Part shown: in pieces, positions 1 to 16,211 of the stretch
Numbering within the stretch: the first letter of the stretch is position 1
Layout: each line of letters starts with the position of its first letter
Assembly (NCBI GenBank): GCA_025201365.1
Contig: JAIXMF010000212.1
Coordinates: forward strand, 1-23,605
DNA: 23,605 bases
From: Syncephalis plumigaleata
Taxonomy: Eukaryota > Zoopagomycota > Zoopagomycetes > Zoopagales > Piptocephalidaceae
Direction of reading: 5' to 3'
Position numbers and translations under genes: made by a program
The notes under the pieces: model-generated
Told to the model about the DNA's origin: nothing
The model's database searches: none
What the model saw: only the letters and a program-made list of their open reading frames with translations

Positions 1-787
1 TGTATTCGGGAGGCAAGACGTGGTATATCAGAGATTGAAATCGAGGAGGTTGCTTTTCGACGTAAGTTAACAGTAATTGATATGTAAAGCAGATCGGGAA
101 TACTTAGTGCGCGCATGCTAACAAACAATATTCAGCTGAACACTTCATGGATACAACGGAATTTGAAGGCGATCACAACGTTGTCGACATTGAACAGTTT
201 TTATCGAGTGTGGCGCCTGATGTCTACAAGAAGTGTACAGCGCCACCAATGAGGAATAAAACGAACGGGCAGCCCATGTTGATCATAGTATCCAGTTCAG
301 GAATACGATGCACCGATGTCATTCGGTAAGTGGTGCTTACACATTTGACATTTTCATTCGAGCACACTATATACTAATAACGCGTGTAGTGCAATGCCAG
401 AGATTCATAAGCGATCCCGTGTTGCAAAGTTGTTTGCGAAACACTTTAAGATCCCGGAACAAGTGGAGTATCTAAGAACTAACGACTGTCGTGCTGCAGC
501 CGGTACACCAAATCGATTGGTAAAATTGGCCGACGAAGAGAATGGTATGTTTCATTGTAACCGTGTAGAACATAATATGTCGCACTCGTTAATACTAACT
601 GTTTCAATGATGCACTTTAGCCCTAGATCTATCGCAGCTTGCTCTCGTGGTGCTTGATCGTCATCGTGATTCAAAGCAACGCACCATGTTTGACATTCCC
701 GAGATACGCGCCGATCTTTTGACAATGCTCGACGGCTCAATTGGACAGCGCGTACGATCAGGCAGCGCAAAGATTGTTGTTTTTTAA
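1..787 (+). CDS. CMS1: Cms1/CMSS1-family ribosome biogenesis protein (5' partial)
   Basis: Four exons are read: 1-61, 136-325, 390-544 and 621-787, giving 190 residues and a TAA stop. The introns (62-135, 326-389, 545-620) have GTAAGT, GTAAGT and GTATGT donors, and the second has a TACTAAT branch-like site at 372-378. The spliced product has the family's order of blocks: an ISEIEIEEVAF segment, LIIVSSSGIR, VAKLFAKHFKIPEQVEYL, a GTPNRLVKL motif, LALVVLDRHRDSKQRTMFDI and a C-terminal KIVVF. Human CMSS1 has equivalent blocks (LFAKH, GTPGR, RMMDIPEIR and a C-terminal LF). Family knowledge: Cms1 is a nucleolar protein of the 90S pre-ribosome (SSU processome) with a degenerate helicase-like fold. 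The start codon and charged N-terminus lie before the window. The ATG at 147 is internal, because exon 1 joins in frame upstream of it. Confidence 0.9.
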
Positions 788-880
788 CGCTTTATAATTA
801 TATCATACAAACAGCAAGTTGTATAACCGCCGCAAGCTTTGCTAGATATGTTTCCTCCCAAAACAAAACAGCTTACGTTT

Positions 881-886
881 AATAAA
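881..886 (+). terminator. Probable polyadenylation signal of the Cms1 gene
   Basis: An AATAAA lies 94 bases after the stop codon in AT-rich DNA, before the convergent tRNA gene. Confidence 0.5.
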
Positions 887-1033
887 TCCGATAATCAATA
901 CAGCTACTAAACTATAGGCTCTACACTTTATTTTTGTCGTCTAAATGTGCACGCGCACGCGCTCTATACATATTCTTTACTTACATGTTCATATTAGCAA
1001 AAAAATAACACCTAGCTACGAGTAATTAGATGC

Positions 1034-1039
1034 AAAAAA
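1034..1039 (-). terminator. RNA polymerase III terminator of the tRNA
   Basis: On the minus strand six T residues begin five bases after the discriminator base of the tRNA, the usual Pol III stop. Confidence 0.85.
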
Positions 1040-1044
1040 GCGAG

Positions 1045-1117
1045 CGAGCACACCAGGACTCGAACCTGGAATCTCCTGATCCGTAGTCAGGCGCCTTATC
1101 CATTTGGCCATGCGCCC
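1045..1117 (-). tRNA. trnR-ACG: tRNA-Arg (anticodon ACG)
   Basis: Read on the minus strand, this is a complete 73-nt cloverleaf without an intron. The acceptor GGGCGCA pairs with TGTGCTC through all seven positions (two G-U) and is followed by discriminator G. The anticodon stem CCTGA/TCAGG encloses loop CTACGGA with anticodon ACG. The T arm CCAGG-TTCGAGT-CCTGG contains the internal B box. It decodes CGU and, with inosine at the wobble position, CGC and CGA arginine codons. CCA is not encoded, as expected for a eukaryotic nuclear tRNA. Confidence 0.97.
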
Positions 1118-1205
1118 GTTAACGGGACAGCTCGTTAAAAATTTTGCAATTTTTTCGTTTATATTCATTCTAGTAACAAATCACGTGACTCCCAAAATTA
1201 CTAAA

Positions 1206-1293
1206 AATGGAACAAGCGTAAGCTGTGCTTGTCCCATTATGCCATTGAGTAAACGAGAGTGTACGCGCGTACACTTGTGCTTACTCAATGGCA
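1206..1293. repeat. Two adjacent hairpin-forming palindromes
   Basis: Hairpin one: AATGGAACAAGC (1206-1217) faces GCTTGTCCCATT (1227-1238) with one mismatch and a 9-nt loop. Hairpin two runs from 1240 to 1293. Its outer stem TGCCATTGAGTAA/TTACTCAATGGCA is near perfect, and its centre is a perfect 18-bp palindrome (1258-1275) around GTACGCGCGTAC. A few mismatches separate the two parts. This could be a small miniature transposable element or a cruciform/regulatory site. No flanking duplication was recognised. Confidence 0.75.
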
Positions 1294-2220
1294 AAGTAAT
1301 AGTGTCTAATAGGGGGTGTAGGTTAGCATAATGATGAAGGTGCCAGCTTAAACTTACTCGTTCGTATTAACGCGCATAGCGGTGCATATAGCAAGCTCGT
1401 CATCTAGAAAGAATGAGTACTAGTAAACGTTAGTAGTAAGGTTAATATTGATACTCTTATATTATCGACACTTTTCTCTGCTTGGAATACCTAGTTGTAT
1501 GCAGCACTAGTTCATCATCTTTACGTGAACAATACTCTATAAAGCTATGCTAATAATATCATACTCTATTGAGTAGTGTTTACGGTTCAAATAGCCATAT
1601 GAACCAACGATGATGGTCAAGCTAGGTGTATGCATCATCAGTCATGGTGTGGTCAAATTGACGAGTGAGGAATAAATGGAAAGAGTTACGTAGACTAGGG
1701 TGTATATGATGATCACCTCGGTAATTAATTATGTGTTAATCACCCACTCTTCTTCTTGAGCATGCATTCGTTTATTAGCTTAGATTAATATGTCTAGCCA
1801 TCATTATATTGGCGGTTATCATTATTGTCAAAATAATAATATACGTCATTTATTACATTACTGTTTTATTAAATGGCCTAATTAGTTCAATTATCATAGC
1901 AACATTATATAGAGTTCTATAATTACATGGTCTATTTGTATATGATATAATAGTAATCCCATCCTCTGGCTTGTTAATGCTCCTGCATAAAGATGGCATA
2001 ATGATTCATACATATTGCGTGCTTTATCACGTGCTATGTTGACTAATCTGCACATGTTAATTGCAATATTTAGTTGCAGCTTAACTCCCACGTAAACACC
2101 TCCGAATAGTTTTTCATTACAGCTAATTTTTTCTATGCAAAATACCTTTTATTCCTACTGTTCTCTGGTTGTATATTTGTACAAGAATAATTAGTAAAAA
2201 AGAAAAGTGATCAGTCTACA
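1294..2220. other. Intergenic AT-rich DNA
   Basis: There is no credible gene: only short frames without domain-like content. The last part, before the ATG at 2221, should hold the promoter and 5' leader of the F-box gene. No clear TATA box or operator could be assigned. Confidence 0.6.
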
Positions 2221-4470
2221 ATGCACAACCAGAGCAGTAATCAGGTCAGCACAGGGCCATGTACTCCTCACCACTGCATGGCTGCACTTGACTGCCGGCT
2301 TCCAACCGAGTTATTGACGCGCTTGCTCTACGCCCTTCCTCCGCATAGTGCAGCTATACTGTCACGTACAAATAAGAGAATGCACCAAATTGTACGTCAA
2401 GAATCACTATACTGGCGAGAATGCTACCGACAACAATACGGCGGTGAAGTATGTCGACAAGGATTCACCTGGTGCGATAACGAGGAGATTGCTGAGAGTA
2501 TGGATTCCGAGGCCACGCTACGCTCTTTCCTACTTAATCGCAGCGTTAGCGGCAAGTATGGATCGTCGAATCTTCAGTCAGACTGGTATGCAGCATATCG
2601 TGCACGCGCCAACTTGGAATTACGATGGCAACGCAATCCATCCAATGCTAATGCTGGCGCAACGGTAATCCCTAGTGTTCGATTGTTAAACACACTGACG
2701 CCAGCCTATACCGACAAACCGTCTGCAACCGTGTCAAACCCATGGCGACGCTCGACGATCAATGTGCATGCCGCGTACACGGTTGTCGCAAATGAAAATG
2801 GCGTATGGATTAGTCATCATCCACTTCAAGAGGGACGTGTGCCACCCCCTAAAATGCTGTGTTACCCACTAGTATCCACTACCACATCTGATGATATCGC
2901 CCAGTCTTTGATATTGGCGGCGAAGCATGAATCGCAGCTTGACAATCAACTATCGGATACAATGCCAATTCCAATTAACGGCTATAATCCAAGACAGTGT
3001 TGGAGCAACGGACGTTGGATAGTAGTTGCCGAGAAATATAGCGACAGCGATGTGACACTATACCACGTATGGGAAGGTGCAACAGGCCGACGTATCTCCA
3101 ATTGCCATGCATCATCTAATGTAAATGACAACACAGTCGTTTCACTATTTAACGAATCCTCACGTTCAACAACACCAGCTAACACACCAAGCTCGACATT
3201 GATGATATCTACACCGTCGCCAACTATTAGTAGTAGTGATGCGTCTCATCGACATGCATGTCACTTGCTAGCTGGATCACAACTACTTACTTGTAACATT
3301 ACTAAAAGCAAATTGCAACTGGAAACATCGTTGACGACACAGCGTTGGCGATTGACACGTTCGAGAACGACCAAAGATTTGCCTGAAAATGAACGATACA
3401 ACTTTATTACGGAACAAGGCTTCTGGCAATCTACCATTGAGAATGAATCAGCACCTATCGTAAAACTGCTAGTTAGCAAGCTTCGACCTAATCTATTGAC
3501 GGGCGTGCAACTAGTGAAGCTGGCAAATGGTAATGATGCAAATCTAACTAGTACACAAATACGTCTGCTACTATGGGATATGCGTGGTACTACGCCCACC
3601 GATCAGCTACCGGATGGACGACACCAAACCAATGAATTAGAATCAGCACCGATCTATTCTCGAGTACTGCTGGACAATTTACAGCCGCACGATACACCGA
3701 CTGTTTGTCAAGACTTTACAGACGATGCTGTCATTCTTCATGGTAATGCAGTGTCAACCGATGCATCGATAGGCCTCTACCATTGGATTGTTTGTTGCAC
3801 GTTCAAGCAGCATCGACGTGGTAGTGTTGCCTCTGATAGTTATAAACTTGATCGCGACAATTACGGACGAGAACAATGGCGACGTGTATTTCCAGCCTGG
3901 CAGTCAATTTGGTCGGCACAGCCTTTGCATGCTGTCGGCCATTTGGCTATTACATTCGGTGAAGGCGATGGCAGCTGGCAGGATCCTTGGTTGTCCAATA
4001 CTACTAACGCGGATGACGTCAGCCATCAAGATTACGGGAAACGTCTCGAGCCAAGTGTAGATGGTTTTCATATTATGTCACTTGACGATGGCTCCCTACT
4101 ACGAACGCTTCCAATGCGTCCCACACGACTTATTGACGCTGTTGGATCGATGCTGATTGTAGCATGGGATAATGTACGTCATGGTGTTGCTGCAATCGAC
4201 ACGACAGCGGGTAAGATTCGTTGGCGACAGCGTTTCCCTGAAGATGATGACACCAATCAATCGACGACAGAAGATAGTAACGAGAACAATATTAACACGC
4301 AAACTACGCGTGGTTGGCTTGATGTTCGTGTGAGTTCCACGCGATTACTAATGATGGAACGACGTCGTCAACAACAACAACAGCGGCAGCAGCAGCAAGC
4401 ATTGAACACCAATAATTATACAGCACAATCAGATCAACATGAACGTTTATTAATTGTTGATTTTGCTTAG
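2221..4470 (+). CDS. F-box protein with beta-rich, possibly propeller-like C-terminus
   Basis: A single exon encodes 749 residues. Residues about 24-72 form a typical F-box: LPTELLTRLLYALPP, then SRTNKRMHQIV and LYWRECYRQQYGG. Family knowledge: an F-box binds Skp1 in an SCF ubiquitin ligase while the rest of the protein selects the substrate. The remainder has scattered WD-like or PQQ-like strands (NGRWIVVAEKY, IRLLLWDMRG, AAIDTTAGKIRWRQRFP), so a degenerate beta-propeller is inferred. There are low-complexity Ser/Thr stretches around residues 305-340 and a Gln-rich tract near residue 720 (QQQQQRQQQQ). No transmembrane segment or signal peptide is seen. The start is the first ATG after a stop-rich leader and leaves about 23 residues before the F-box. 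The substrate cannot be named. Confidence 0.85.
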   Translation: MHNQSSNQVSTGPCTPHHCMAALDCRLPTELLTRLLYALPPHSAAILSRTNKRMHQIVRQESLYWRECYRQQYGGEVCRQGFTWCDNEEIAESMDSEATLRSFLLNRSVSGKYGSSNLQSDWYAAYRARANLELRWQRNPSNANAGATVIPSVRLLNTLTPAYTDKPSATVSNPWRRSTINVHAAYTVVANENGVWISHHPLQEGRVPPPKMLCYPLVSTTTSDDIAQSLILAAKHESQLDNQLSDTMPIPINGYNPRQCWSNGRWIVVAEKYSDSDVTLYHVWEGATGRRISNCHASSNVNDNTVVSLFNESSRSTTPANTPSSTLMISTPSPTISSSDASHRHACHLLAGSQLLTCNITKSKLQLETSLTTQRWRLTRSRTTKDLPENERYNFITEQGFWQSTIENESAPIVKLLVSKLRPNLLTGVQLVKLANGNDANLTSTQIRLLLWDMRGTTPTDQLPDGRHQTNELESAPIYSRVLLDNLQPHDTPTVCQDFTDDAVILHGNAVSTDASIGLYHWIVCCTFKQHRRGSVASDSYKLDRDNYGREQWRRVFPAWQSIWSAQPLHAVGHLAITFGEGDGSWQDPWLSNTTNADDVSHQDYGKRLEPSVDGFHIMSLDDGSLLRTLPMRPTRLIDAVGSMLIVAWDNVRHGVAAIDTTAGKIRWRQRFPEDDDTNQSTTEDSNENNINTQTTRGWLDVRVSSTRLLMMERRRQQQQQRQQQQALNTNNYTAQSDQHERLLIVDFA

Positions 4471-4569
4471 ACATTAATTACAATATTATTTATGCATTGA
4501 CCATTTATTAGATGTAATAATATGCTGTTTCTGTTGCGCTTGAGTAGTTAAAAAGTGTATCTCATCATT

Positions 4570-4575
4570 AATAAA
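4570..4575 (+). terminator. Probable polyadenylation signal of the F-box gene
   Basis: An AATAAA lies 100 bases after the TAG stop and just before the left inverted-repeat arm. Confidence 0.45.
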
Positions 4576-4650
4576 TAGTATTTGAATTGTAACTTATATA
4601 GTAAATACTACTCATTAGGTTATTATAGTAATTGCTATATAGAATTCTAG

Positions 4651-5980
4651 ATTACAGGGTTTTCCAACCAGTTGGCATTGTTAGCCTATAACTTTTGCTC
4701 TTACTGAAAAATAATTTCGCATAATTGTTAGCGTCGCTGTCTTTGTCAATACTGTACACGCAATCATACAATGAACACGATTAACAAGGAGTATAAGACG
4801 AGTGTGCTATGGAGAGGGTTAATTACGTACACAGATACTAATGCTATATATTGACTTCAATAATAACAATAATAATAATGATACTAACTAATGCGCAATA
4901 CTATTTATTAATAAAAGCAGAGATTAATGACTAACAGCGTTAAACGGTTGGAAAGATCTGTAATACCATGCTAATGATCAATGAATGGACGTACTAATGT
5001 AGTTATTACTCTCTATTAATGCCATGCTAGCTATTGATATGTACTATGCAAATAAAGATATAGCCATCATATAGGATTTCCTCGGCACATTTACAATATG
5101 CAATACAATGTCAGACAGTGCCACTACAAATACAAAGTGCTAAGCGACGTAATTGGGTAGTAGTTAGCGCGGATATTATGTATGTGCGCGTACTTTCACA
5201 ACACACGAGTAAAAGGCGTAGTGTTCGTTACGTATACATGTCGCAATTGGAGGAACAAAAGCACTGGCTAGTGATTAACACGAGTACCGCGTACTTGCAT
5301 ATATAGTTATAAATCACGAGTAAGTAGTGCAAAGTAGCGAGTGGAGACGTTGTATGTTGACAAGCAAGTGTGTCGCCTAATGTATAGCGCGAGTGTTACG
5401 TATGCGTACGTGTCCCCACATACTACAAGCAATGATCAGCAAGTCAACGCGAATAAAGTGGTACAACGTGGCGAGCAAACGCAGTGAATAAAGGACACGA
5501 CATGAAATAATAGAAATACACGAGTGAGGGCAAGGGAGTGTCGCAAGCAAGTAGACAAGGGAGCGAGAAAGAGAGAACTGAATAGAGGATAGACCAGTAT
5601 GAAAGACACAGTGGAGTATATGCCACGTTGATCGACAACGAATAAAGAACCAACTACTACACAGCGTGAAGAGCAAAGTGTGCTTATGACAGAGTATACA
5701 GATTGGAGTGAGGCTGCCGACGAGTAACGATACAAAATACGAGTACGCGACATACAATCAACATAATCGACAAGTAGTCATTGGCAAAGCGGCAGACTAG
5801 ACGGGAATAAGACGACCGACCGAGACCAGCAAAAGACAAGTAGTATACGCTTGCAGCTAAGCGTAGCCTGTATATGACTGTAAACGAAGGTGGAGTAAGA
5901 GGAAAAGCATGAGTTGTAGTGGTGTATGTGTGAGTAGAAGACGAATAAAAGAATAAAAAGCAATAGACGAGTGTGAGTGT
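4651..5980 (+). repeat. Left arm of a long inverted repeat (about 1.33 kb)
   Basis: This segment is the reverse complement of 9962-11289. Coordinates sum to 15940 in the outer part and 15942 after a 2-nt indel near 5290-5315. The outer edge is sharp: TACAGGG starts at 4653 and the DNA outside does not match. By eye almost all bases agree from 4653 to about 5780, with substitutions (C/T at 4668, a few others). Open frames in the two arms translate identically, for example a 105-residue frame. Divergence increases towards the inner edge and homology fades in a GT-rich run near 5980. The arm contains many copies of an ACGAGTA-like motif. Its frames lack domain-like content, so it is probably not coding. 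Confidence 0.95.
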
Positions 5981-6059
5981 GTGTGTGCATTAGCGTGCAT
6001 TATGTATTGATTGATAGGGATACAAACAACGAGTAACCATTAATGTTTGAAGGAACAAC

Positions 6060-6065
6060 TTTATT
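6060..6065 (-). terminator. Probable polyadenylation signal of the Cdc20-like gene
   Basis: AATAAA on the minus strand lies 33 bases after the TAA stop. Confidence 0.55.
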
Positions 6066-6097
6066 ATGTTCACTAAAGTAGAACTCAATTCATGAGT

Positions 6098-7521
6098 TTA
6101 CATCTCCCAGAGGGAGAGGGGCTTGTTGGGCGCACTAGTTGCAAACACATTGCCATCTGGCGAGGTGGCCAGATATGAGACACCATTGTCGTGTCCAGTT
6201 GCCATGCTGATTAAGTCCAGATCAGCATGGCGTCCAATACGGTCACCCATCTCAGTGACAACGTCCGGTTGCATCAGCTCTGGATACTCCCAAAGTCGTA
6301 TATTCTTTTTCTTGCACGTATGTGTTGATAAGATGCCGCGGTTATGCGGTAACCAGGCCAAGTTACTTACTTTAGAATTTGTTTCAACTGAGCTATAAAT
6401 ATAACCATCCGTTATGTTCCATAATCGAATTTTACCATCTCTCGAGTTACTACCGACTACTAGTAAGTCATCGCGATGTGGTGACCAAGCGGCAGCTTTG
6501 ATTGCACTACCATCACCTTTGTCCAAGCGATGAAGAGGTGACGTCGAATATTTGTCCCAAAGCAATAAGTGGCCATTCATATTACCGCTAACTTGATAGG
6601 TATTTGCACGATTCCAGTGCAAACAACATACATCAGATGTATGCTCGAGGTACCGTTCTTCCTCAATATCGGGAGCTCTTATATCCCGCCGCATGATTCT
6701 TCCGCCATTTTCGCCACGTTCGCCTGAGTCTAGCACTGAGCCACACCATGTCATAGCGTATATTGGGTGCCCTGATCTGCCGTATGTACGCAGCACTCGC
6801 TCGTGACGTACGTCCCATACGTTAATAGTACCGTTGGCTGTTGCAACAGCCAAGTATGGTCTCTACATAAAAGGAAAGTAAATGGATTAATAAATTTTGG
6901 TACAATTGACTAGAAGTGATTGCCACTTACTTCCTTCATCCAGCTTACACATGTAATTGGATTGTTTGCGCTTATATCATCCAATTTAATATCAGCACCG
7001 GTGGTAGTGTTCACTACGGTTAAGTGCTCGTTTGTTCCGACTGCTAACAAATTGATTGGTGACCAATCAATAGGATTAGAATAAAGGTGTTGAACTATGC
7101 TTGTTGCGTACGCTGGTGCGATTAATTGTGATAAGAGACGTTCCACCGATCCATGAGTTTGTCGTTCCGTATCAAATCTATACGGTTTAATTATACTAGA
7201 TATTGTCGCCAACATTCTAGAGAAGTCACTTCGGTGGAATTGTGGTGGTGGCGGTGACGATGACGATGCCGCTATATGTTGAAAATCATTATCTTCTAAT
7301 AACGTCGTTTCGTCGAATGTTGGCTCTGTGTTGGTGGTGGTAGTGGTGGTAGTAGTAGTGCCAGTGCTGGTAGTGGTAGCAGTAGTGGTGGTAGTGGTAG
7401 TGCCAGCGGTAGCAGTAGTGGTAGTAGTAGTGGTAGATGTTGCTGTTCTGTCACTCCGTAATCGGCGTGCCATTGCTCGGGTGACTACTCCACTATGACT
7501 GCTAAGATTTGAAATAGTCAT
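6098..7521 (-). CDS. Cdc20/Cdh1-family WD40 protein, divergent
   Basis: Two exons on the minus strand, 7521-6931 and 6862-6098, are joined in phase 0 across a 68-nt intron (GTAAGT...TGTAG). They encode 451 residues. The N-terminus is basic (RAMARRLRSDR), then comes a threonine-rich tract at about 26-68, then a linker. Seven WD-like blades run from about residue 160 to the end. Family-like signatures include NPIDWSPINLLAVGTN, YLAVATANGTINVWDVR, GGRIMRRDIRAPD (compare the HHHDVR blade of Cdc20), KAAAWSPHRDDLL and a final LSLWEM. Family knowledge: these proteins activate the APC/C and recruit substrates. I find no clear C-box (DRYIPxR-like), and the protein ends at the last blade without a C-terminal Ile-Arg tail. 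It may therefore be a divergent or meiosis-type activator, a regulator that lost APC/C binding, or lack an unseen terminal exon. The start is the first ATG in frame. The gene lies wholly between the inverted-repeat arms. Confidence 0.85.
7318..7446. repeat. GGTAGT-type low-complexity tract coding poly-threonine
   Basis: The plus strand shows imperfect GGTAGT/GTGGTA repeats. On the minus strand they encode about 40 residues that are mostly Thr, with a few Ala, Ser and Gly, in the N-terminal region of the Cdc20-like protein. A tract like this is expected to vary in length between strains. Confidence 0.85.
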
Positions 7522-8290
7522 ATTGTTTGCCGCTAATATGAAATATACAGTGTATAAACAAGAAGATTTAAGGATGCAAAGCTTAAAACTTGAGAGAACT
7601 GCGACTTCTAGACCGATAGCAAACAACGCGTGTCTCGATCAGCGGTAGCAAGTACAAACTGCTGTTGCAGTAGTAGCAGCAGTAGAAACACGTAATCGCT
7701 AAGATATAAAGTGAACAGAGGTTATTGACGAAGGTTATGGAGGATATACAGGAAAGGAAAAGTACTGCGCTCGTAATATTTACAAAGCGAGCGAGAAGAA
7801 TAGAAGAATAAACGTAATGGACAATATCGCGAGGATGTATACAAAATATACAATGGTGAGGAAAGGTAGTTCGAGTATATGTTTTGCAAAGCGGATAGCA
7901 TTCGTATACTACACGGTATGCTTTGTATTGTATTTTTATACTTGCTTATTGCTACTTGCAAGTACATCGCATGTGAACATCAAACCATACTGCTACGCTT
8001 GTATCGTCACGAATGCTATAAGGTAGACGATTGCTATCGCTATCACTGAAACATTTATTACCAAATACTGAAGTTTGTATAACCTAAATGGCCAATGATG
8101 ACGGCATCATAGCACTCACTACATAGTGAGCTATTCAATGACTCACACCAGTTCTCTTCACACCACTTCTCTTTACTCTTCTCTTTACTTTTCGCTTCTC
8201 TTCTTCTTCTCTTCTTTGTCATTCAAATGAACTATTTATTCTTTTCTTTGTTTAAACATACACATAGCGAAATAGGTCAGTGCTCCGTAA
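7522..8290. other. Upstream region of the Cdc20-like gene
   Basis: No gene is recognised. It should contain the promoter and 5' leader of the minus-strand Cdc20-like gene. A pyrimidine-rich CTTCT tract lies at about 8152-8220. Confidence 0.5.
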
Positions 8291-8453
8291 ACTGTTTGCG
8301 TGTAGCGTAGCGCTGAGTGTGGTAATGAGCGTAGTTGACATTTTTCCAGTTCAGTGTAATGTCGGTACCTGTAACGGGTGTCGATGTTCTACGCTACTTG
8401 CTTGCGGACATTCATATATTTACGTAATATGAAGCTACTGCAAAGCAAACGGT
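8291..8453 (+). ncRNA. Candidate structured RNA (three-way junction pattern)
   Basis: Nested complementary segments are visible. Stem A is ACTGTTTGC (8291-8299) with GCAAACGGT (8445-8453), nine pairs including one G-U. Inside it, stem B is GTAGCGTAG (8302-8310) with CTACGCTAC (8389-8397), nine perfect pairs. Stem C within B is GACATT (8337-8342) with AATGTC (8358-8363). A side hairpin is TTCATAT (8411-8417) with ATATGAA (8427-8433). This could be one folded RNA domain. No known RNA family was recognised, no Pol III boxes are obvious, and transcription is unproven. Confidence 0.25.
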
Positions 8454-8956
8454 GAAACTAAATTCTGAATGAGAGCTTAAGGAAATTGTAGCATCCTTAC
8501 GGAAGGAAAGTCGCCATTGTTTCTACAGGTCATTAAGTTGCTAATGTAGCTGGGTAGCCTCTCTATTATGTGAATATTATGAAATGTATCGGTTTGCAAA
8601 TACTTGAATACATATCTTTATTCTATGTTGATATGTGTTTAGGTAATTTGCCATCATAATATCATGTAAGTTATGCTTTGCCGTGATATTTGATCATCAT
8701 GTTGCTGCTTCAGGGAGAAGGGCCTAGTTTACTTGGTATTATGGTGACTGACCACATTTAATGATATGTTTTTGTGTATGTTTAATCACTCTTTATTTGC
8801 GCTATCCTATCGCATTCTAATTGTACTTTTATTCATATCTCCACTTCCCAATCCCCTCATTTATTATGTCATGTCCCATTAGCACCAATACATTTTGTAT
8901 AAATGTGCTAATTTACTGATCCCATCGTATGTGCTTCAGTTGATGTACCATGAACC

Positions 8957-9211
8957 GCTACGGAAGTAGCAGCATCGTCTATGGCGGTGATGCTTAGCCA
9001 GCATCACCATCATACTGTCGATGTGATGTATGGCCATTTGTAATGAATGGACCATATGCCCGCTCTTCCATAGTGTCTACTGCCGAATGTTATCACACTA
9101 ACATTCAGCAGTATAGTGGTATATTGTCGCAAGGCTATCCAACTGACTCAGCATTGCATGTCCGCTCCATAGAAAAGGCTATGGCTACGGCTGCGGATAT
9201 GATGGGGACAT
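8957..9211 (+). other. Cluster of five consecutive hairpins
   Basis: In order: GCTAC-GGAA-GTAGC (8957-8970); GGTGATGCT/AGCATCACC (8986-9008, 5-nt loop); TATGGCCATT pairing with 9046-9056 with one bulge; an ACTGC...GAATGTTA stem from 9079 to 9112 (13 pairs, one mismatch, 6-nt loop); and ATGTCC/GGACAT (9158-9211) around CCATAG/CTATGG. A frame from the ATG at 8950 reads 15 codons to a TAG at 8995 (in the second loop), then stays open in the same frame to a TAA at 9211. The product matches nothing I recognise. It may be a structured transcript, a decayed small gene, or chance. Confidence 0.3.
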
Positions 9212-9267
9212 AACATATCTTAACACTTTATTGTAATCATTCATTCATTCATAAGGATTAATTACAG

Positions 9268-9406
9268 GTAAGTTCATTTATTACAATACACTAACAACAT
9301 TACAATTAGAACATCCAAATGTCAACGATATTGACTACACGCTATTTCCATTTTATTCGGTAAGTTGTCATTTCTATTCATTGCTAATACAAGTGACAAC
9401 ATCCAG
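9268..9406 (+). other. Two intron-like segments on the plus strand
   Basis: Segment 9268-9309 has donor CAG|GTAAGT, a CACTAAC branch-like site at 9289-9295 and acceptor TTAG. Segment 9360-9406 has donor CG|GTAAGT, a GCTAATA branch-like site and acceptor CCAG. They would leave an exon of 50 nt between them. A third possible pair is 8666-8713. At 42-48 nt they are shorter than the introns in the coding genes here. Frames across them do not give a credible protein, so a spliced non-coding transcript or chance are both possible. Confidence 0.25.
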
Positions 9407-9961
9407 ACAATATGTACTAATTCTCATTCTAAATGTCAATCAACTAATATTCAACAACAGCAACGACAGTATACCAGGATAATCAACCATGCTAATGCTT
9501 ATTGCCAGCACTCATTGCCATCCATTATTGACAAGTATCCACTAGCAATATTAATAAACATGAATCATTTTGATCTATATCGACATGCACCTTTTACTTT
9601 TACCACTCTTTTCCGTCATCTGTTTGTATGCCACCATTACGTCATGCTTTTATTTGTATTTTTATTTGTTTACTGCCATCTAAATACTCTATTGACCACA
9701 TACAAGCATATACTGCTTCTTCAAATAAACTGGTATACGTGTTCGTGCACCCTTCCTTGCTCATTCTTTTGTTCGTCCTCTCGTTATCACGTAACTATTC
9801 CGCGACACTAATAAAAGATGTATATGCTCACTCGCACACTCACCCGGTTGTTTACCCGTTGTTTGCTCATTCATTCATTCACTCGTTCGTTTGTTCGTTC
9901 ATTCGTTTGCTAATAGCATAGCTATTCCCATGACACTCTTAGACGGTAGCAATGCTCGTTA
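9407..9961. other. Intergenic, low-complexity inner flank of the right arm
   Basis: No gene is recognised. From about 9825 to 9905 the plus strand carries irregular repeats of CACTCGT, TCATT and TCGTT units, related in sequence style to the ACGAGTA motif of the arms. Confidence 0.5.
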
Positions 9962-11289
9962 ACACACACACTCGTCTATTACTTTTTATTCTTTTATTCG
10001 TCCTCTGACCACACATACACCACAACAACTCATGCTTTTTCTCTTACTCCACCTTCGTTTACAGTCATATACAGGCTACGCTTAGCTGCAAGCGTATACT
10101 ACTTGTCTTTTGCTGGTCTCGGTCGGTCGTCTTGTTCCCGTCTAGTCTGCCGCTTTGCCAATGACTACTTGTCGATTATGTTGGTTGTATGTCGCGTACT
10201 CGTATTTTGTATCGTTACTCGTCGGCAGCCTCACTCCAATCTGTATACTCTGTCATAAGCACACTTTGCTCTTCACGCTGTGTAGTAGTTGGTTCTTTAT
10301 TCGTTGTCGATCAACGTGGCATATACTCCACTGTGTCTTTCATACTGGTCTATCCTCTATTCAGTTCTCTCTTTCTCGCTCCCTTGTCTACTTGCTTGCG
10401 ACACTCCCTTGCCCTCACTCGTGTATTTCTATTATTTCATGTCGTGTCCTTTATTCACTGCGTTTGCTCGCCACGTTGTACCACTTTATTCGCGTTGACT
10501 TGCTGATCATTGCTTGTAGTATGTGGGGACACGTACGCATACGTAACACTCGCGCTATGCATTAGGCGCCACACTTGCTTGTCAACATACAACGTCTCCA
10601 CTCGCTGCTTTGCCTTACTTACTCGTGCTTTATACATATATGCAAGTACGCGGTACTCGTGTTAATCACTAGCCAGTGCTTTTGTTCCTCCAATTGCGAC
10701 ATGTATACGTAACGAACACTACGCCTTTTACTCGTGTGTTGTGAAAGTACGCGCACATACATAATATCCGCGCTAACTACTACCCAATTACGTCGCTTAG
10801 CACTTTGTATTTGTAGTGGCACTGTCTGACATTGTATTGCATATTGTAAATGTGCCGAGGAAATCCTATATGATGGCTATATCTTTATTTGCATAGTACA
10901 TATCAATAGCTAGCATGGCATTAATAGAGAGTAATAACTACATTAGTACGTCCATTCATTGATCATTAGCATGGTATTACAGATCTTTCCAACCGTTTAA
11001 CGCTGTTAGTCATTAATCTCTGCTTTTATTAATAAATAGTATTGCGCATTAGTTAGTATCATTATTATTATTGTTATTATTGAAGTCAATATATAGCATT
11101 AGTATCTGTGTACGTAATTAACCCTCTCCATAGCACACTCGTCTTATACTCCTTGTTAATCGTGTTCATTGTATGATTGCGTGTACAGTATTGACAAAGA
11201 CAGCGACGCTAACAATTATGCGAAATTATTTTTCAGTAAGAGCAAAAGTTATAGGCTAACAATGCCAACTGATTGGAAAACCCTGTATT
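9962..11289 (-). repeat. Right arm of the long inverted repeat (about 1.33 kb)
   Basis: This is the reverse complement of 4651-5980. The outer edge is at 11287 (CCCTGTA), after which the flanks differ. The best-conserved part is the outer 1.1 kb. The inner 200 bases show more substitutions, for example GTTGTTGTGG against GTTGTAGTGG. No independent gene is supported. The open frames mirror those in the left arm. Confidence 0.95.
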
Positions 11290-12002
11290 AAAACGTAAAC
11301 AGCTTACTATTCCGTGTTTGTATCTACTTGTGTTGAGTCACGCGTATCCATTATTTTACACTTTATAATATTAATGAAAGAAAGAAAGAAAGAAAGGCTT
11401 GAATAAATGAACATTATGGACAATGTAAACGGGAGTTTAGTATGTTCGTGTAACAAACGTGATTTTACATCATGCGTGTCGTTAGTGGCACGGCAATTCA
11501 AATATGCAGCATGAATATGCATGCAACAGGGATGTTTCAGCTGTGTTGGCATGTGCATACCGGCTATTATAGAAGTAGGAGATGACCATTTAATAGCGGA
11601 TTACTTACAATATCTCGCACTTTCGCTTTCGTTCTCTCTCTCTCTCGTTCTTTCGTTCTCTCGTTTGTCGTTCATTATCCACTGTGCTGGCACACTAGTC
11701 TGTTTGTTATCATTGTCATTTACTTCGTATTCCTCATTTGATTACCTTGTATCAAGCCACTCCCTCCATTGACTTGGTTTGTATCTTATTCCGCACACAT
11801 TGTAGTTTTCCAATTGCTCCCTTATCATTAACGGCCGGTCCGTTGTATTCGCTCCATCAAAATCATTATTATTTGTTTATAAGTCAACTGTTTATTATTG
11901 CTGTGCTAGCAAATTCATCAACTATACTATTGTGTATACAAACTCATTGGCACGATATATATATATATATACGTACATTTGCGCTTACCATCGATATAAA
12001 CA
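11290..12002. other. Intergenic region upstream of the RGS-like gene
   Basis: It holds a (GAAA)5 microsatellite at 11376-11396, a CT-rich stretch near 11625-11665 and an AT dinucleotide run at about 11955-11971, 30 bases before the start codon. No gene is recognised. The promoter of the downstream gene should lie here. Confidence 0.55.
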
Positions 12003-13364
12003 ATGTCGCCAAACTCGGTTCCATCTACCCACGAATGTCGCCTCTTGCTCGAGGTACTACTCGCCGAGGATCACTCGGCCCTGGTGGGGATGACACAGGC
12101 GCCATTGAGCTCTGAAGATTTCCAGCTATATTTGCAAAAACAACAAGACAAGACTCTCGAGCATTGTATCGAGTTCCTCGAATGGTTGGTCGACTATACC
12201 GTGCGATTCTCCAAGCTTGCTCACGATCTACAACAACGCAGTCCACCTGCACGCGGTGATCGCGTAGAAATGAGCAGTGTCCAGTCAACGGTACCCGGTA
12301 TTCGGTATGGACTATCTCCACCGGGCAAACAGCCATTTCGTAGTGCCGCTGATTTTTGCCAGCTACGATTTCTTAATCCAGGTGCACCACTCGACCTAAG
12401 AATGCCACTTGGTATTCGTGACACGAGTCTCGCTCTACTAGCTCGGACCACACATCCAAGCGCGTTTGCCGGTGTAGCCGATCATTGTCGACGCCGATTG
12501 GCCTCCGAGGCATTGCCGAAATACGTATCGAGTGCCTGTCGAAACATTAATCAACGATCCGTACGCATGCGTAATCTATGGTGTGCCCTCGGTATCACAT
12601 TGGTGGTTGCAGCCATTCTAACGACTGTCCTATTGGGATGGTCACGTTGGATTCGGTTTGCACTGGTTCCTTTTATATTCTACATTATCTTCACTCTATT
12701 GGGATCGCATCTATCTCTGTGTTTCTTTCGCTATCTAAAGGGTATTCGTGACGACAGCGGATATGATGGCGATGCACATGACGGATCGGATCATCAGAGT
12801 GGCAGCGGCAATGGTAGCAATAGTCCGTTAGACGACATCGACGATGCTAGAAGACTGGAGTCTGGCCTGTGCCCAGTCGGTGGTCTGGAGACTGTACCCG
12901 AGGTTAACGAAACGGAGGAGGAAAAGTCAGTGGTGGTAGACGAGGAGAAATCGGGAACATCCGTGGATCCTGCAAAAGTCAGCCTAGATGGCGAAACAAA
13001 GTATTCCGGTAGTATTCATCGATTGTCGTCGATTACCACACGACTACCCTCGCTCGACTATATTGAATCGGATCCAAGTATATTTGAGATTGAGGCATCA
13101 TCAGCACCAACATCGGCATCATCTTCATGGTCTCGATGGATGTTCTGGCGTCGAAGACAACAAGTGGAACCGAAGAAGAAGCAAGGCTATAGCAAATCAT
13201 TCGAGAAGATGCCCACCAATAGCTACAAGCGAGTGGTGCGCTCGTCTCTTGTACGTCGACTACAACGACGTCAAATCCTTCGTAATGTCATTCCAATGTC
13301 TATAATTACTACCTTAATGTTTTCAGCTGCTTTGTTGGCCATTCCCGAAACTATATTCGACTAG
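12003..13364 (+). CDS. RGS-domain membrane protein, Rax1-like
   Basis: A single exon encodes 453 residues, close to the length of yeast Rax1. The N-terminal half reads as a divergent RGS fold: LLLEVLLAEDHSALVG, then PLSSEDFQLYLQKQQDKTLE, FLEWLVDYTVRF, and a later part with FLNPGAPLDLRMP, ALLARTTHPSAFAGV and LPKYVSSACRNINQ. Two hydrophobic segments follow at about 192-212 and 220-242. A long acidic, Ser-rich region comes next, then a basic stretch and a final hydrophobic segment at about 428-447. Family knowledge: Rax1 marks bud or cell poles in yeasts, and related RGS-transmembrane proteins are common in fungi. Whether this one acts on a G-alpha subunit or in polarity is not shown. The ATG is the first in frame. 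A CT microsatellite follows within ten bases of the stop. Confidence 0.75.
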   Translation: MSPNSVPSTHECRLLLEVLLAEDHSALVGMTQAPLSSEDFQLYLQKQQDKTLEHCIEFLEWLVDYTVRFSKLAHDLQQRSPPARGDRVEMSSVQSTVPGIRYGLSPPGKQPFRSAADFCQLRFLNPGAPLDLRMPLGIRDTSLALLARTTHPSAFAGVADHCRRRLASEALPKYVSSACRNINQRSVRMRNLWCALGITLVVAAILTTVLLGWSRWIRFALVPFIFYIIFTLLGSHLSLCFFRYLKGIRDDSGYDGDAHDGSDHQSGSGNGSNSPLDDIDDARRLESGLCPVGGLETVPEVNETEEEKSVVVDEEKSGTSVDPAKVSLDGETKYSGSIHRLSSITTRLPSLDYIESDPSIFEIEASSAPTSASSSWSRWMFWRRRQQVEPKKKQGYSKSFEKMPTNSYKRVVRSSLVRRLQRRQILRNVIPMSIITTLMFSAALLAIPETIFD

Positions 13365-13370
13365 CTTCCT

Positions 13371-13371
13371 C

Positions 13372-13409
<38 letters not shown>

Positions 13410-13421
13410 ATCTATCTATCT
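13371..13421. repeat. CT then TCTA microsatellite
   Basis: An almost pure CT run passes into TCTA repeats directly after the RGS-like gene's stop codon, in its 3' UTR. Length variation and sequencing slippage are likely. Confidence 0.9.
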
Positions 13422-13437
13422 ACTAGTTGATTATAAA

Positions 13438-13443
13438 AATAAA
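13438..13443 (+). terminator. Probable polyadenylation signal of the RGS-like gene
   Basis: An AATAAA lies 74 bases after the TAG stop, beyond the microsatellite. Confidence 0.5.
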
Positions 13444-14184
13444 TGATATTTACGAACATTTTAGGAATATGGTTTATTGCCATGATAATTGTTGGACAGA
13501 CTAACCAGTTGTATAGCATTGTTGCATGCATCTACTTTATATTACGTTAGTTGGTGGATATCATTTCTCGAAACAAGCTATTCACTACAAAGCAGCAATA
13601 ATCCATGCGAGTTTCCATGACAGACATACTTATCGACTACGTCACCTATCCGTATATCCATATCCATAATCATATTCATATTCATATCTATACCCATATA
13701 TGAATATATGAATACATTTATGCGTTCTATCCTATGCAATAGTCCTAACCACCTTGGCCGCTCGAGTACTATCCTTTGCACTAAACGTGCAATAATCCAA
13801 CTGGTAGGATCTACCTTGATCAAAAAGGACGAGTAGTGGCACAAATAATCCTAATTTGCTATGGACCGGTTCATCATCAGGTGATCATTCTAGTTGGTGT
13901 GGGCGGTGCAAGGACAACCTGCATAAGGCAGAAAGTCTACCTGTGAACCTAGTCTATTCCATTGCTGTAGCATTTCTCTATGGCAAGCAAGAACAACGCG
14001 CAAGCTAGTTTTCCTTTTCCTTCATCGTCTCCTTGTCAATCTTCCCCTAATAGCGAGACTCTATTATAATAAAATATATTGCTCACGCTGTATTCAGCGG
14101 ATAGCTCGCAAAAAGAAACTAGCCATTCGCCATTTGAATAAACGTGACGATCTAACTCACGGCATGGTAAAGAAGTAGGCTAGC
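13444..14184. other. Intergenic DNA with TATCCA/TTCATA repeats
   Basis: An irregular ATATCC/ATATTC repeat lies at about 13650-13715. A minus-strand open frame crosses it but is largely repeat-derived (alternating Met, Asn, Asp and Ile). Nothing else is recognised. Confidence 0.5.
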
Positions 14185-14662
14185 ATGGCAACTCCGCACG
14201 TTCCTACACACACGCACGCGACCATTCTGGCAAGAATGACTGGCTCAACTGGTAAGCATGTCCATGTCCATGTGTGTCTGTCTATGTCGATTCAAGTCAT
14301 CATTCTCAATTCAGCATGTGGCTGCAGATTATCGCGGTGGCCTTGTTCTAAGCGTTACATCGTTCGTCATTATTATTCCTTCCCTTTTATTAACTACTTG
14401 CACAGAACGACGCTTCTCTTCCAACACTTCTCCTACTTCTTCTTCTTCTCTCCTTTCATTTAATTACAATCTACTATTTATTTCAATTCGTATTCGTTAT
14501 TGGTCGTGGCTTGATTGCTCGTCCAGATTTATTCCAATAGCTATATCCGCTATCATTGTTATTTTTCTTATTTGTAGTAGTATCTCGACGAATTCAATTA
14601 TCCGATTCACCAAACTGTCGAAACACAACCGTGTATTGTCGTTCTCATTCAAGATAGTGTAG
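14185..14662 (+). CDS. Doubtful two-exon hypothetical membrane protein
   Basis: An ATG at 14185 opens 22 codons to a GTAAGC donor at 14252. Joining to an acceptor CAG at 14325-14327 keeps the phase and gives a 133-residue product ending at TAG 14660-14662. The 76-nt intron matches the size of the real introns in this window. The product has two hydrophobic stretches, LVLSVTSFVIIIPSLLL and FIPIAISAIIVIFLI, with a Ser/Thr-rich loop between. No homologue is recognised. Much of the frame is pyrimidine-rich DNA, which yields hydrophobic and serine codons by chance, so this may not be a gene. Confidence 0.2.
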
Positions 14663-15464
14663 AGTAAGTGATATTTCTATGTGCATGCTGAATACGCTAC
14701 CGAGTTATCGCACGTTTGCTTTTAACCTCCTTACTTGGCAAGCCTACGGTGCCTACCTATCATCTTCCTTGTCGGCGGTCACAAAATCAGACTAAACAGT
14801 TTATTTGTGGCTTTACGGCCTTGACACTTCAAACTGCTGTGTCACTGCCGTTGACTGTACTTCGTCAGCGTTACGTTTCTTGCTTTCTTCATTAACAAAT
14901 ACTACATAACATTAGTTCATATTCGGAGGGAGGTCTGGGTTTATTTTAGAATATATATTTCGTATATTATTCGACTTTGAAATCTCCGACCATTATTTCC
15001 GTTACACTTCGTTCTTTTATTTATTCGCTCCACACACACACACACACACGTACGCATACGTCCACACACCACCACCACAACCACTCGATTCTTGTTCTCT
15101 CGTCCTCCCTTTCTTAAAGGCTGGTTCATTCTAATATACTTGCTATAGTCACTGCAGTCGAGTGTCTACCTCATTACTCTTCCTTTCACCCCCACCTTTG
15201 GTTAAACATTGTTATTATCATCATCATCTTCCTCTACTAATTTACATTTCTATACTATTGCGTCCTACACTAGTACGCATATACATACACTGATACATAT
15301 TACGACATAATCTAGGTTTTGTTGATCAAGTTTACGCAACTGTGAACCACTATCTACCGCGGTTGTCTTTAATATTGCGTAGCAGACTAGGCTCGTTTAC
15401 TTCCCTTTTCGATATATCGTTATTCGTATCTTATTATTCACCATTATACAACTAATCGACAAAC
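14663..15464. other. Upstream region of the kinesin gene
   Basis: No gene is recognised. A CA dinucleotide run at about 15030-15049 is followed by CCA repeats. The kinesin promoter and leader should be in this stretch. Confidence 0.5.
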
Positions 15465-16211
15465 ATGGCACCGACTAGTAGCGAAGGCACTGATGTGTCA
15501 GTCCAAGTTGGTAAGTGCTTATGTCTGTGACTTCCTAGGAAGATGATGTTTCGGGAATAGACGCTAAACATGCGATACCGCTATTATTGTATGTCTAGCC
15601 CTTCGTATACGTCCACTAAACGACTCGGAGATCGTACAACGTGCTCCCTCGATGCGCAATTTGCCCGCTGAAGTGCTCAGTCTCTCCCCTAATCTACCCA
15701 GGGTTACGGTAGTGCCATATCAACGTCACTTCACCTATGATCATATATTCGGACCGTCTACCTCGCAGCAGGAAGTGTTCGACCAGTGTGTCGCTCGTTT
15801 GATGGACAAATTTCTAGACGGATACAACGCCACCATCCTTGCTTATGGTCAGACCTCCTCCGGTAAAACGTTTACAATGGGCACCGGGCTCGGCGAGGGT
15901 TACGCCGACAGCGAGAACACACGGGGTATTGTACCACGAGCCGCGGCAGCTCTATTCGATCATTTGCAACGAATGCCTCGCAATGAATTCAGATATCAAG
16001 TACAAGTATCGTTTCTCGAGATTTACAACGAGGATCTCATTGATTTACTGTCGATTACTTCTCGCGATGGACCGCGCAACACGGTCACCATTCGCGAGGA
16101 CACCCGCGGCAACATCATATGGACAGGTGTACGCGAGTTACGAGTTAATAGCATGCTAGAACTGTTGAGGTAAGTGGCATTTTATTTGGTTTTTATTACG
16201 TTAAACTAATG

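Follow-up and report, generated by a model that had tools for sequence, protein, structure and literature searches.

Two orientations of one segment

Is a gene enclosed by two almost identical inverted repeats confined to one orientation, or can the enclosed segment be turned round, and would such turning work as a switch? The question is raised by a stretch of Syncephalis plumigaleata DNA of 23,605 nucleotides (contig JAIXMF010000212.1, assembly GCA_025201365.1), here called the window, in which two long inverted arms enclose a centre of 3959 nt hosting a Cdc20/Fizzy-like gene. An earlier note had described the arms as near-identical, and had predicted that recombination between them would invert the centre and exchange the outer flank lying next to the gene. 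The window is contig C127 of an assembly of 383 contigs and 32.6 Mb, and all comparisons were made within that one assembly.

The predicted inversion is seen when C127 is compared to contig C1 (locus 1). The left outer flank of the window (1-4652) is collinear with C1:1489471-1494118, plus strand, over positions 1-4640, and the right outer flank (11288-15500, compared from 11290) with C1:1500742-1504938, plus strand, at 98% identity. The C1 segment aligns to the window with 270 mismatches over 9681 aligned bases when inverted, and with 2339 over 9527 when not inverted. The centre taken by itself is unalignable as it stands, and shows 3.67% substitutions once inverted, against 0.72% and 0.96% in the near flanks (about 1.5 kb on each side). 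Because both orientations of the centre exist between the same outer flanks, the flank adjoining the gene is swapped; given the 3.67% difference, neither orientation merely duplicates the other. Arms matched by position differ between the two contigs at 58/1325 (4.38%) and 52/1325 (3.92%) sites.

The arms are indeed near-identical. The left one (4653-5991, plus strand) is a copy of a dispersed repeat, and differs from the right one (9951-11287, minus strand) at 18 of 1326 aligned bases, plus two gap columns. Repeat detection resolved them into two abutting inverted pairs, 4653-5304/10636-11287 (652 nt, 100% as a rounded value) and 5301-5991/9951-10641 (691 nt, 97%). The statement that almost no differences occur over 1.1 kb is roughly right, because of the way in which differences are distributed in an alignment of the four arms: the window arms do not differ at all from 4669 to 5304, feature a cluster of differences at 5305-5383, then isolated substitutions or gaps at 5758 and at 5808, and accumulate more past 5902.

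C127 and the corresponding part of C1 are probably haplotypes carrying the segment in opposite orientations, as a result of an unprogrammed inversion between homogenised inverted repeats, and at least two more loci would be alike. According to this model, gene conversion would hold the two arms of one chromosome, which are copies of a dispersed repeat, near-identical, and conversion events resolved as crossovers between the arms would turn the enclosed segment round; the same process would act at the other loci, whose arms belong to that family as well. The inversion moves the gene and its own upstream DNA as one block, and is probably of little or no selective consequence.

Two further loci with inverted centres

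Locus 2 is found on contigs C117 and C362, and encloses a Peptidase_M17 gene. The left flanks are collinear (C117:1-3700 with C362:333859-337580, plus strand, 99%), as are the right flanks (98.3%), and the sequence that begins at the outer end of the left arm and runs across the centre is inverted, at 97.4% identity. As at locus 1, the centre is more diverged (2.24%) than the flanks (0.81%). The C362 right arm differs by 2.99% from the left arm of C117 and by 4.68% from the right one, as if the arm had been turned together with the centre. The C362 left arm, compared in part, differs by about 7% from both C117 arms, and adds nothing to this pattern.

Locus 3, on C46 and C123, encloses a Peptidase_S9 open frame. 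The right flanks are collinear at 99%; the left flanks match in three pieces, in order and on the plus strand, and a 534-bp dispersed repeat is found in C46 and not in C123. The inversion is seen in part, on the C123 side from coordinates only: 1.05 kb of a 1.9-kb centre query match C123 inverted, at 95%. All three loci known on two contigs thus feature collinear flanks and opposite orientations of the centre, the third in part. The repeat of about 534 bp (L019:461-993, corresponding to C46:31960-32492), many copies of which are 99-100% identical, is a young mobile element.

Several observations weigh against inversion between haplotypes. Haplotype status is read, within a single assembly, from short contigs about 1% different from the long ones, and in the three second contigs (C127, C117, C123) the inverted segment starts some 3.7-4.7 kb from the contig start, a position that could hint at an assembly path. 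The count of three out of three may carry a bias, since contigs that differ in structure are more readily kept separate. Homogenisation is weaker at locus 2 than at locus 1, identity between the C362 arms being only 93% over 587 nt. At locus 3, C123 offers no counterpart to a large part of the centre query; next to the inverted match it carries a 121-bp dispersed piece on the plus strand, it holds a further occurrence of one left-flank piece at 10269-10560, and it is about 1.5 kb longer than C46 between the arms.

These data bear on the hypothesis of an assembly artefact, by which the inverted repeat would provide two paths in the assembly graph and the second contig would hold the centre the wrong way round. 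All three second contigs, which are short, show the inversion near one contig end, and this speaks for the explanation. It is unlikely nonetheless. The centres differ, by the 3.67% and 2.24% given above, and the arms carry contig-specific and arm-specific variants, so that different molecules must have been read and the arms resolved. Collinear second contigs hosting single arms also exist (C35/C317 and C24/C99, 98.5%).

The dispersed arm family

Both the arms and the centre of the window are multi-copy in the genome. When the left arm was used as query, at least 40 long matches at 90-100% identity were found (40 of 241 candidates were scored). A 28-mer from the arm has 83 genomic matches with up to three mismatches, 62 of which are exact; the reversed control has none. 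The majority of the arm copies are single. Ten neighbouring pairs were found at a distance of up to 6 kb: nine are facing as in the window, one is direct, and none is outward; three outward pairs are spaced 6 to 15 kb. Only 0.31 facing pairs are expected within 6 kb, and nine were reached in none of 20000 simulations, in which arms were placed on one 32.6-Mb line. The nine pairs correspond to six distinct loci: three are present on two contigs each, and the remaining three are known from one contig only (C13:391028/394907, C46:370952/373957 and C318:1017153/1022794). Once the second copies of loci had been removed (77 arms, 6 facing pairs), six facing pairs were reached in 0/60000 simulations. 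A different repeat similarly forms a facing pair, 2.6 kb apart, on two contigs (C46:128128-131274 and C50:17453-20595).

The outer 306 bp of each arm (4655-4960, plus strand, and 10980-11285, minus strand) look like a miniature inverted-repeat transposable element (MITE), having inverted ends that resemble each other (CAGGGTTTTCCAACC / GGTTGGAAAGATCTG) and being flanked by TA on either side. The cassette could accordingly be imagined as a present or former mobile element, the arms corresponding to long terminal repeats and the two orientations to separate insertions. Besides the TA-flanked ends, which coincide with the outer ends of the window arms, this hypothesis may appeal to the recurrence of the Cdc20-like unit at seven further places besides C127 and C1, and to the different genes that arms enclose. 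We regard it as extremely improbable, because both orientations share the outer borders within the same flanks, and two insertions would hardly do so. Moreover, arm extents differ between loci; in the 27 copies compared for extent the outer ends were ragged, the inner end was commoner, and no clean mobile-element borders were found. Transposase domains were not found in the centre open reading frames (ORFs) scanned, and inspection by eye of the borders of the paralogue L016 revealed no target-site duplication.

The arms were also considered as coding DNA; this was rejected, as the one ORF scanned per arm (105 and 134 aa) had no match in Pfam. A site-specific recombination site at the nearly invariant 28-mer was similarly rejected. 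Its region has a mean pairwise identity of 0.965 and is no conservation outlier, bins from 5013 to 5972 spanning 0.896-0.975 in a profile of 20 arms, from which 8 of the original 28 had been removed for being allelic copies or the second member of an arm pair.

Homogenisation of arms and divergence of the centre

The two arms of one contig are more similar to each other than arms of different contigs, differing at 9/1327 sites in C1 and at the 18/1326 already mentioned in C127. Of 92 variable columns in the four-arm alignment of locus 1, 44 follow the contig, 4, located at the inner edge, are swapped, 1 is allelic by position, and 43 follow other patterns. The locus 1 arms thus undergo concerted evolution within the chromosome.

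The centre, more diverged than the flanks at both locus 1 and locus 2, might conversely denote an old balanced inversion, the two forms having diverged for lack of recombination. The comparison to paralogues, which covers locus 1 only, makes this rather unlikely. Among 138 differences between the contigs, 86 have both states represented among six paralogues, whereas for the other 52 one contig has a state of its own. Where paralogues vary, 82 of 425 columns distinguish the contigs, versus 46 of 3144 elsewhere; the latter value (1.46%) is close to the difference usual for paired contigs in this genome (about 1.5%), yet still above that of the locus 1 flanks. Therefore, much of the extra divergence needs no old inversion, which is not favoured as the chief source of divergence in the locus 1 centre. 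Much of it comes from exchange of sequence between this centre and copies located elsewhere. In addition, Cdc20-like paralogues (window 6098-7521 and L011-L016) differ in blocks shared in varying combinations, and such mosaics suggest gene conversion among dispersed copies.

The enclosed gene

The only gene recognised in the centre of locus 1 is not a mating-type gene. It is an intact gene of 451 aa, putatively a Cdc20/Fizzy-type WD40 gene, on the minus strand (6098-7521), made by two exons (7521-6931 and 6862-6098) separated by a 68-nt GT-AG intron (6930-6863). The C1 copy is also intact, and encodes 447 aa once spliced. The remainder of the inverted segment on this side (7522-9950, minus strand) is upstream DNA, 2.4 kb of which invert together with the gene.

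The earlier note had placed a Cdc20/Cdh1-like cell-cycle gene in the centre. WD40_CDC20-Fz is the best Pfam family for both exons, and the best PDB match is a Fizzy-related protein. Scores are 150.3 and 33.5 bits for exons scored separately and 181.5 genome-wise, the curated cut-off being 200. Activators of the anaphase-promoting complex/cyclosome (APC/C) are marked by the C-box DR[F/Y]IPxR and a C-terminal Ile-Arg tail (PMC5717348). Neither these nor a KEN box were found in eight translated Cdc20-like copies, two of which are broken. The fold resembles that of Cdc20/Fizzy proteins; because these motifs are missing and the score falls below the Pfam cut-off, the cell-cycle label denotes a resemblance rather than an established role.

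Nine near-full copies of the unit exist; leaving out that of C56, eight were examined, and six of them are intact. The eight copies represent about six loci, because those of C127 and C1, and probably those of C13 and C77, are allelic. The ratio of nonsynonymous to synonymous substitutions (dN/dS) is 0.42 between C127 and C1, and ranges from 0.08 to 0.57 over 15 pairs of intact copies, so that the gene appears to be under moderate constraint. Genome-wide, 12 of 56 Cdc20-family matches, possibly allelic in part, exceed the Pfam cut-off.

Much of the upstream DNA (7730-9769) recurs at 81-93% identity in many places, several of which lie beside other Cdc20-family matches (for example C318:671789-674006, C121, C378 and C329), as if the spreading family had carried along some 2 kb of upstream sequence. 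A more diverged Cdc20-like copy, lacking the window arm, is enclosed by a different inverted repeat of 254 bp (L016:640-890 and 5105-5358, 90%).

The nature of the enclosed gene bears on the hypothesis of a programmed inversion, by which the gene would be switched as at mating-type loci of methylotrophic yeasts. Inverted repeats and both orientations are present, and the arms are similar in length to the 2-kb repeats described at some mating-type loci (PMC6692504). Yet genes of different kinds (Cdc20-like, M17 and S9 peptidases) behave alike, one gene is enclosed rather than two alternatives, and the 2.4 kb that precede it are turned as well. No part of the arms is unusually conserved, and no conserved crossover site was found. 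Scanning 9 of the 16 window ORFs listed revealed no recombinase domain, no genome search for recombinases having been made. A programmed switch is thus very improbable, and the suggestion of a special inversion at an APC/C activator finds no support, as two peptidase genes have been turned likewise and the upstream DNA is inverted too.

Comparison with known systems

The closest parallel is the flip/flop region of Saccharomyces chromosome XIV, 24 kb long, hosting 15 genes between 4-kb arms and found in many strains; conversion with crossover is proposed there as the cause, and no phenotype is tied to orientation (PMC9731477). Two orientations between homogenised inverted repeats are found in both systems, and as arms are there closer within a strain than between strains, here they are closer within a contig. 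Conversion between arms with occasional crossover would be the simplest account here also, as argued for Saccharomyces (PMC9731477). The S. plumigaleata system differs in consisting of several cassettes, each of one gene and a few kb, whose arms come from one dispersed family, as seen in one assembly, and in the exchange with paralogues elsewhere.

Polymorphic human inversions, for which there is evidence of recurrence, involve inverted repeats of 1.6-24 kb and segments from 5.1 kb (PMC3961182). Several loci mediated by inverted repeats are similarly found in one genome; here, in contrast, a single repeat family supplies the arms of the compared loci, in a genome of 32.6 Mb. At yeast flip/flop mating-type loci, inversion between inverted repeats also yields both orientations, but mating-type genes at the segment ends are there switched by position (PMC6692504), whereas here the enclosed gene takes its own upstream DNA with it when turned, and the same is seen at unrelated genes. 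At the level of titles and listings, the literature offered nothing relevant on inverted repeats in early-diverging fungi, heterozygous inversions in a fungus, Cdc20 expansion, or invertible cassettes in diploids.

The presence of a gene in two orientations between inverted repeats does not by itself denote a switch, as unrelated genes here behave alike. Since the genome offers several short inversions of one gene each, all with arms of one family, one could measure across loci how often inversion occurs, how it is tied to gene conversion, and whether orientation has any effect on expression. From the six loci seen, three of them caught in both orientations, one might imagine that one repeat family has made single-gene segments into invertible cassettes, routinely heterozygous for orientation and perhaps changing within an individual, with an effect on expression or pairing used by the organism; this seems quite improbable.

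Other features of the window

Spliced genes, such as those for a kinesin and the Cdc20-like protein, mark the window as eukaryotic. An F-box-like gene (2221-4470, plus strand) lies inside the left outer flank, and a tRNA-Arg (acg) gene (1044-1117, minus strand) is also located in this collinear region.

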